Positions 32,000 to 32,157 of a stretch of DNA of 64,000 nucleotides are shown piece by piece. The position numbers and the translations under genes are program-made. The DNA lies in contig NZ_CP030050.1 of NCBI RefSeq assembly GCF_015291705.1, positions 310,001 to 374,000 on the forward strand, read 5' to 3'. The notes under the pieces were generated by a model. That model saw nothing but the letters and a program-made list of their open reading frames with translations, did not search any database and was not told the origin of the DNA. Source of the DNA: Bradyrhizobium arachidis (GTDB taxonomy: Bacteria; Pseudomonadota; Alphaproteobacteria; Rhizobiales; Xanthobacteraceae). The first letter of the stretch is position 1; every line of letters begins with the position of its first letter.

Positions 32000-32028
32000 T
32001 GTGTCTTGGAAGTCTGTCAGGATGGGTT

Positions 32029-32153
32029 GGGCGGGAAGCCGTTGGGTCCTTGGCGCTTGACGCCGTGAGCCGGCTCGGTCTCCCGCCCGTTCCATTACCA
32101 ACCTGAACAGTTGCACGAGGCTGCGCCAACAGACCTCGCATCACAGGGACAGG
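32029..32153 (+). ncRNA. Predicted bridge RNA of the IS110 element
   Basis: The left end can fold as two loops. Target loop: stem GGGCGGGA (32029-32036)/TCCCGCCC (32081-32088), with inner hairpin GGCG/CGCC (32052-32055/32061-32064). One side of the loop carries TGGGTCC (32043-32049), identical to the left target TGGGTCC (31992-31998). The other carries AGCCGG (32068-32073), complementary at 5 of 6 to CCGGAT at the right target. Donor loop: outer stem CCTG/CAGG (32102-32105/32150-32153), inner stem CGAGG/CCTCG. It carries ACAGTTGC (32107-32114), identical to the right IS end, and CACAGG (32142-32147), complementary to the left end CCTGTG. This is the layout described for IS621 bridge RNA. Confidence 0.78.
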
Positions 32154-32157
32154 CACC

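Follow-up and report, generated by a model that had tools for sequence, protein, structure and literature searches.

Does the noncoding left end of an insertion sequence in Bradyrhizobium arachidis encode a bridge RNA, whose guide segments read both the insertion site and the ends of the element itself? The initial annotation of a 64,000-nucleotide stretch of the genome (hereafter the window; all features given below lie on its + strand) had proposed so. The element in question spans 1,108 bp (31999-33106, one base of each core copy included) and consists of a 158-base noncoding left end (32000-32157), a recombinase gene (32158-33099) and 6 bases (33100-33105) that lead to the right core. The gene encodes a recombinase of 313 aa from a GTG start, at which some relatives have ATG. 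This protein scores 206.9 bits (cut-off 140) against the NCBIfam model 'IS110 family RNA-guided transposase'; its residues 5-307 align with the IS621 recombinase (E 5e-36), and it is a homologue, over most of its length, of the ISCro4 recombinase (PDB 9t56; E 6e-35). By hand-matching on the IS621 alignment, the RuvC-like DEDD residues fall at D11, E54, D95 and D98 and the serine of the Tnp domain at S234; their roles are carried over from those described for IS621 (PMC11208158). The RuvC-like DEDD and Transposase_20 domains with the catalytic serine, together with a long noncoding left end and a short right end, are those of the IS110 group. The marks of the IS1111 group, a noncoding RNA region downstream of the gene and long subterminal inverted repeats, are absent from the element: only 6 bases separate the stop codon from the right core, and an inverted-repeat check of the element found no inverted repeats pairing its two ends.

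The source genome holds seven copies with identical left ends, none of them more than four changes in 1,108 positions away from the window copy; from such near-identity within genomes, the element was probably active recently. All seven (L001-L007) lie within about 1.04 Mb (342161-1380291) of the 9.87-Mb chromosome. Target repeats are dense in that region but occur elsewhere too, and local hopping of the element is possible. The same chromosome carries three more distant IS110-like reading frames (L008, L009 and L010), which match partially at 30-32% identity.

Four guide segments can be read in the left end, two in each of two loops. The left target guide (LTG), TGGGTCC (32043-32049), equals the target at 31992-31998 to the base, exactly as the initial annotation had it, and is unchanged in 70 of 70 copies. 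AGCCGG (32068-32073) is indeed complementary to five of the six bases to the right of the insertion; the position proposed for the right target guide (RTG) therefore stands, but not its length, since from flank matches and the comparison of repeat arms the guide is best taken as the 7-nt GAGCCGG (32067-32073). All seven of its bases pair where the right flank reads CGGCTC, as at L003 in the source genome. Among the donor guides, the segment first noticed, ACAGTTGC (32107-32114), does equal the right end, but the match extends to 9 nt, and the left donor guide (LDG) is AACAGTTGC (32106-32114, identical to 33098-33106). The right donor guide (RDG), CACAGG (32142-32147), is, as claimed, the complement of the left end CCTGTG (31998-32003). 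Both donor guides are invariant in 24 distinct left ends. The donor bases that they face are the left donor (LD) AACAGTTG (33098-33105), at the right end of the element and overlapping the stop codon, and the right donor (RD) TGTG (32000-32003), just inside the left core. Two further dinucleotides lie where handshake guides would be sought: CU (32074-32075), which follows the RTG at the place of the IS621 handshake guide, fits the donor at one of its two bases, and GA (32148-32149), which follows the RDG, fits the target TC (31996-31997) in the manner expected of such a guide. The arrangement, a target loop with LTG and RTG ahead of a donor loop with LDG and RDG, is that of an IS621-type bridge RNA.

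Chance had been judged an improbable source of these matches, and when the 158-base left end was shuffled 20,000 times with its dinucleotides kept, not one shuffle held all four guides in order (7 bases exact, 6 with one mismatch, 8 exact and 6 exact). The strength of this result lies in the combination, because single segments are not all rare: TGGGTCC occurred in 569 of the shuffles, ACAGTTGC in 103, the 6-nt RDG in 2,323 and the RTG, one mismatch allowed, in 10,262. As these thresholds were chosen after the matches had been seen, independent copies of the element weigh more.

We established the core from empty sites. A comparison of 29 neighbourhoods gave five in which the match reached the end of the left flank, and in two of these (L232 and L233) the flanks meet. 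These two are orthologous empty sites at the window locus in two relatives; there the repeat is uninterrupted (ATGGGTCC-CGGATCTGCGC, 84-86% identity) and the site reads TGGGTCCCGG. The left target (LT) TGGGTC (31992-31997), formed by the last bases of the interrupted repeat arm, is intact in both. Counting C residues gives three in the empty site, three at the left junction and two at the right junction. Only one register fits these counts, with a target TGGGTC[CC]GG and a donor AACAGTTG[CC]TGTG; hence the core is CC, present as a left copy (31998-31999) and a right copy (33106-33107), the latter followed by the right target (RT) GGATC (33108-33112), which has one mismatch to the RTG, at its third base. 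The empty sites thus confirm the early reading of a CC core in place of the CT of IS621. In all 70 copies of the branch the two junctions carry CC, and the CT core of the IS621 type was not encountered; no target duplication was found beyond the CC core.

The sample behind these counts comprises 70 copies from 16 Bradyrhizobium genomes: the seven of the source genome and 63, at 75-94% protein identity, from 15 further genomes, a lower bound since at most eight candidates were scored per genome. Copies were taken at 75% identity or more, minus one interrupted partial copy in G010; 40 loci from a wider contig scan (copies already in the sample, fragments at contig ends and distant relatives from other groups) were left out of the counts. 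The 70 copies occupy 54 distinct 12+10-base flank contexts. Mapping the insertion sites of related copies, a check that the initial annotation had proposed, gave a consistent picture. Seven of seven source-genome copies sit at TGGGTCC/CGG; six of them lie in a palindromic intergenic repeat, while L003 has a different left flank in which TGGGTCC is retained. Across the 16 genomes the LTG is TTGGGTCC in 70/70 copies, the left flank is exactly TGGGTCC in 65/70 and the right flank begins with CGG in 68/70. Position -8, outside the guide match, varies (53 A, 14 C, 2 G and 1 T among the 70 copies), whereas positions -7 to -1 hold. We looked for copies whose left ends are identical but whose insertion sites do not match the guides, a case that had been named as evidence against guiding: five of the 70 copies lack an exact TGGGTCC, four of them (L112, L116, L138 and L161) by one LT mismatch each, and L171 has CTG on the right. 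The clear misfit is L128 (G250), whose guides are intact and whose flanks, CGAGGTC on the left and CGCTTC on the right, fit poorly on both sides; it may be an off-target insertion, a rearrangement or an assembly effect. In four copies of G241 (L169-L172) the LTG reads TTGGGTCCC, which pairs with both core bases, unlike that of the other branch copies.

Matching is loose toward the 3' end of the right target, position 12 being C in 46/70 and A in 17/70 copies. Copies with the RTG variant GATCCGG have A at this position in 5/6 cases against 12/60 for GAGCCGG (Fisher P 0.0035; four other copies left out); as the copies are few and related, we take this apparent tracking as a hint.

The sequence interrupted in the window is an intergenic palindromic repeat of REP-like type (31890-31998), of which the genome holds many copies: at least 77 matches, both strands counted, were obtained with 40 of 106 first-look candidates scored. 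By inspection it carries CGTC at its ends, and it is by this feature that it resembles the CGTC-tagged repeats of a 2013 survey of palindromic repeats, which describes them as present in Bradyrhizobium and without transposase-gene association (PMC3733652). In 29 repeat loci the arms mostly end in ATGGGTCCC, followed by GG in one arm and mostly by CG or TG in the other. The source genome contains ATGGGTCCCGG 84 times, ATGGGTCCCCG 43 times and ATGGGTCCCTG 52 times (the last including six element junctions), and TGGGTCCCGG 104 times versus 14 times for the reversed control. The two arms, which have the left target in common, provide a natural control of the right target guide. We counted TGGGTCCCGG, TGGGTCCCCG and TGGGTCCCTGC, these three continuations alone, in 15 of the 16 genomes (without G250). 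From the availability of the three kinds, 42.5 of the 65 copies with an exact left target would be expected in CGG; 64 were found there (P 5e-12, copies taken as independent; no two 20+20-base contexts coincide). Arms carrying TGGGTCCC with another right target are avoided, and nearly only the arm that fits the RTG is used. This preference favours an RTG at work in nature, as far as a bias in site use can tell; it could also be read as the protein preferring GG after the core. More generally, the guides suggest why IS110 elements of Bradyrhizobium insert in intergenic repeats.

The guides of the element's own branch (S1) cannot covary with their targets within the branch because the left end is so conserved (LTG identical in 70/70). 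The comparison was made with two sister branches of the same genus, S2 (L173-L189; ~39-43% protein identity) and S3 (L190-L229; ~36-42%), in which element ends were placed by pattern and by eye and not from empty sites. Both have a CT core. S2 has the flank TCATC[CT] with the guide TTCATCC in most elements, and the right flank GAGG with the guide CCTCAG; S3 has guides such as TACGCCCC, AACGCCCC and CGTGCTC. Judging from its junctions, S2 seems to insert into the repeat TCATCCTGAGG. A single genome (G085) already shows different target guides in S3, and there they change in step with the flanks. Fixed rules parsed 117 of 127 elements (L180, L190, L191, L200, L210-L213, L228 and L229 were dropped). 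Over 89 distinct rows, the LTG window matched the flank at 6.92 of 8 bases, versus 4.84 with shuffled flanks; when each distinct LTG window was given a single row (n=20), the match was 6.85 of 8, versus a shuffled mean of 4.77 and a maximum of 5.9 in 1,000, so that 0/1,000 shuffles across the three branches reached the observed value. For the RTG, the non-core right target was matched at 3.63 of 4 bases versus 2.83 when shuffled (maximum 3.37; n=19). In S3 alone (n=29), the LTG matched at 7.10 versus 5.49 (maximum 6.34), with 5 to 8 of 8 bases in single rows, and the RTG signal was weak (3.41 versus 3.16, maximum 3.38). Target guides that covary with their flanks, which the initial annotation had asked to see, are therefore found across three branches with different guides, and it is from this between-branch comparison that the covariation expected of bridge-RNA orthologues is drawn.

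These data bear on the alternative that the protein itself recognises the palindromic repeat, the target-like segments of the left end being a relic or a coincidence. Such recognition would account for 69 of 70 insertions (all except L128) falling in one kind of site, many of them in palindromic repeats by inspection, and some REP-targeting insertion sequences are indeed thought to recognise palindromes by protein, according to the 2006 account of such elements (PMC1525189). Yet L003 and other copies have flanks that share little past the guide-matched bases, the drift of position -8 stops where the guide match begins, and within one genome sister-branch elements combine the guide AACGCCCC with an AACGCCC flank and TACGCCCC with TACGCCC. 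We consider targeting by the protein alone very unlikely.

The predicted bridge RNA would span 32029-32157 (~125-130 nt, ends uncertain), as judged from the start of conservation, the position of the promoter and the folds. In its target-binding loop (32029-32088), an outer stem GGGCGGGA/UCCCGCCC (32029-32036/32081-32088) and an inner stem CCG/CGG (32039-32041/32076-32078) enclose the LTG, a hairpin GGCG/CGCC (32052-32055/32061-32064) and the RTG. In the donor-binding loop (32102-32153), a CCUG/CAGG outer stem (32102-32105/32150-32153) encloses the LDG, a hairpin (32116-32123/32130-32138) and the RDG. RNAalifold on 24 S1 left ends found covariation in 1/43 pairs; since the stems are invariant within the branch, we tested the hand-named structure against the sister branch. 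In an alignment of S1 and S2 (20 sequences, 19 distinct), the 17 hand-named pairs form in 99.4% of cells, and shifting by 1-3 columns lowers pairing to 38-59%. Changes on both sides occurred in 4 of the 17 pairs versus a shuffled mean of 1.6; one of five measures, the number of further pair types, fell below the shuffles (7 versus 8.6). The outer stem of the target loop shows compensatory changes relative to S2, that of the donor loop has one compensatory pair, and by hand we found C-G/G-C swapped for G-C/C-G between branches in the target-loop hairpin. The outer stems that had been read in the window are therefore borne out, and covariance with homologues speaks in favour of the fold, through some compensatory changes, which stem from few independent events. 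The folding energy is modestly under that of shuffles (z -2.0 and -2.8). A search with Rfam at gathering scores did not find the bridge RNA; its sole hit in the window is a tRNA.

A conserved fold that places the guides in stems had been named as a second kind of evidence against guiding, and this was seen in part. The minimum free energy (MFE) fold of the window RNA pairs six of eight LTG bases with the RTG, as does the RNAalifold consensus of the 24 left ends. Within the branch this says little because the columns are nearly invariant, and it is no cross-branch fold, since four sister-branch RNAs form 0, 0, 0 and 3 such pairs. A further candidate, GUCUGUC/GACAGGC as a closing stem in the fold of all 158 bases, was rejected: its 5' side varies without compensation (TCTGTCA, TCTGCCA and TCTGGCA), a pattern that fits an extended -10 better than a stem.

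The hairpins could also be read not as a guide RNA but as a regulatory leader or attenuator of the recombinase gene. The structured segment does reach the GTG start, and the purine-rich AGGGACAGG could act as a ribosome-binding site. However, a leader need not match the flanks and both ends of an element in four ordered segments (0/20,000 shuffles), nor need its internal loops vary in step with insertion sites; as a replacement for guiding it is exceedingly improbable, and a leader function could be an added role. AGGGACAGG lies before the GTG start in the 3' side of the donor loop (window 32142-32160), so that translation of the recombinase might respond to folding of the RNA or to binding of the protein.

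Transcription of the RNA would require a promoter, and the sequence layout is that of one reconstituted at the circle junction. A putative extended -10, TGnCAGGAT (32015-32023), would join TTGCCT across the junction with a 17-nt spacer; the TTG of the LD AACAGTTG would double as the first bases of the -35. In 12 of 12 distinct variants among the 70 copies, TTGCCT, 17 bases, TG at the extended -10 and a CAKRRT hexamer are conserved, and 10 of the 17 spacer columns vary, including the base after TG. Eleven S3 elements have TTGCTT, 17 bases and TG, followed by CAGAAT (nine), CAGAAC or CAAGAT. As the S2 promoter is unreadable at that spacing by inspection, the claim of a promoter covers S1 and S3. 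The predicted start of the S1 RNA coincides with the target-loop stem, from which conservation is unbroken. Ahead of this stem no 5' stem-loop is evident in 15 distinct upstream stretches, which give weak, shifting folds (-1.1 to -6.4 kcal/mol); the weak hairpin of the window copy (-5.1 kcal/mol) overlaps the -10 and lies upstream of the predicted start. S3 has a 5' stem-loop of 9-10 bp (~-23 kcal/mol) at the predicted RNA start in the three elements folded, and S2 a candidate small 5' hairpin. The IS621 study describes this stem-loop as structurally conserved in orthologues and reports that its deletion weakens binding and slightly cuts recombination (PMC11208158). Provided that the start is as predicted, the 5' stem-loop appears to be naturally absent in S1.

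The element is thus, with high confidence, an IS110-group insertion sequence that would use a bridge RNA in an IS621-like mechanism. This interpretation of the initial annotation is supported by features observed directly: the ends and copies of the element, the empty sites, the covariation of guides with flanks, changes in the stems with some structural covariation, and the conserved layout of the promoter. For transcription, RNA binding and chemistry we infer the following course. The recombinase would cut the element out as a circle closed at a single CC core, whose junction would build the promoter TTGCCT-17-CAGGAT with TG at the extended -10, from which a short RNA would be made starting at about 32029. 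In the first loop, the LTG would pair with the bottom strand of TGGGTC-C and the RTG with the top strand of CCGG(C/A)TC; the second loop would pair on the circle junction, the LDG with the bottom strand of AACAGTTG-C and the RDG with the top strand of CCTGTG. Strand exchange at both CC cores by two recombinase dimers would follow, and the circle would enter one arm of a Bradyrhizobium palindromic repeat with no duplication past the core. That the copies instead spread with the repeats by homologous recombination, so that shared flanks reflect copying and not targeting, is scarcely credible: six of the seven source-genome copies do lie in similar repeats and all seven at 0.34-1.38 Mb of the 9.87-Mb genome, but the flanks past the guide-matched bases differ, with 54 distinct contexts in 70 copies, and the window locus is empty in two relatives.

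Comparison of S1 with its sister branches shows how the core differs. In S2 and S3 the RTG and RDG base that faces the second core base is A (CAG or GAG; CAAG), which pairs with T; by inspection, it is G in S1 (CCGG, CACAGG), which pairs with C. Target, donor and two RNA bases thus differ together. In the left guides of S1, the second core base faces a U in the LTG, which is a wobble, and an A in the LDG, which is a mismatch; the four G241 copies have C in the LTG. Unpaired left guides are not special to CC, because most LTGs of S2 and S3 are likewise unpaired there. For IS621 and its orthologues the second core T has been called almost invariant, and in IS621 the backbone of G63 is said to read it; the EATG motif with that glycine is kept in the recombinase of the element. 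We regard it as rather likely that a natural IS110 branch has a whole CC core, with a concerted change of target, ends, RTG and RDG, and works with a bridge RNA stripped of its 5' stem-loop. If true, nature has changed two features that the IS621 literature held to be constrained. Of these departures from the IS621 type, the CC core is firm, and the absence of the 5' stem-loop is conditional on the RNA starting where predicted.

The bridge-RNA mechanism, the targeting of REP sequences by IS110 elements and the junction promoter have already been published (PMC11208160, PMC11208158, PMC11187229 and PMC1525189). Among the papers listed in our literature searches, none treats bridge RNAs of Bradyrhizobium IS110 elements; the name of the genus is absent from the main text of PMC11208160, whose supplements, with thousands of predicted RNAs, may list the branch. 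A 2006 account, from a time when the guide RNA was unknown, lists rhizobial IS110 elements inserted in REP repeats, among them ISRm19 (4/4), and does not name Bradyrhizobium (PMC1525189). The seekRNA of the IS110-type ISEc21 resembles the RNA proposed here in coming from a noncoding region upstream of the gene and in its two target matches, whose order is the reverse of that in IS1111 (PMC11187229); the matches described there are to the target, whereas S1 also has legible donor guides. ISCro4 (PDB 9t56), a homologue, was compared by protein sequence alone. The closest likeness is to IS621 of E. coli as described in PMC11208160 and PMC11208158: an RNA from the left end, a target loop followed by a donor loop, four guides that agree in order and strand sense, a core within the pairings, a junction promoter, a recombinase with DEDD and serine, and insertion in REP-type repeats, here by sequence. 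Three differences stand against it. The core is CT in IS621 and CC in the S1 element; the RNA is reported at 177 nt with a 5' stem-loop, and that of S1 would measure ~125-130 nt with none evident; the RTG has 4 nt in IS621 and 7 nt in S1, though longer RTGs are reported in other orthologues. A compact bridge RNA, predicted at ~130 nt, and a second core base other than T would show the reach of the IS621 rules.
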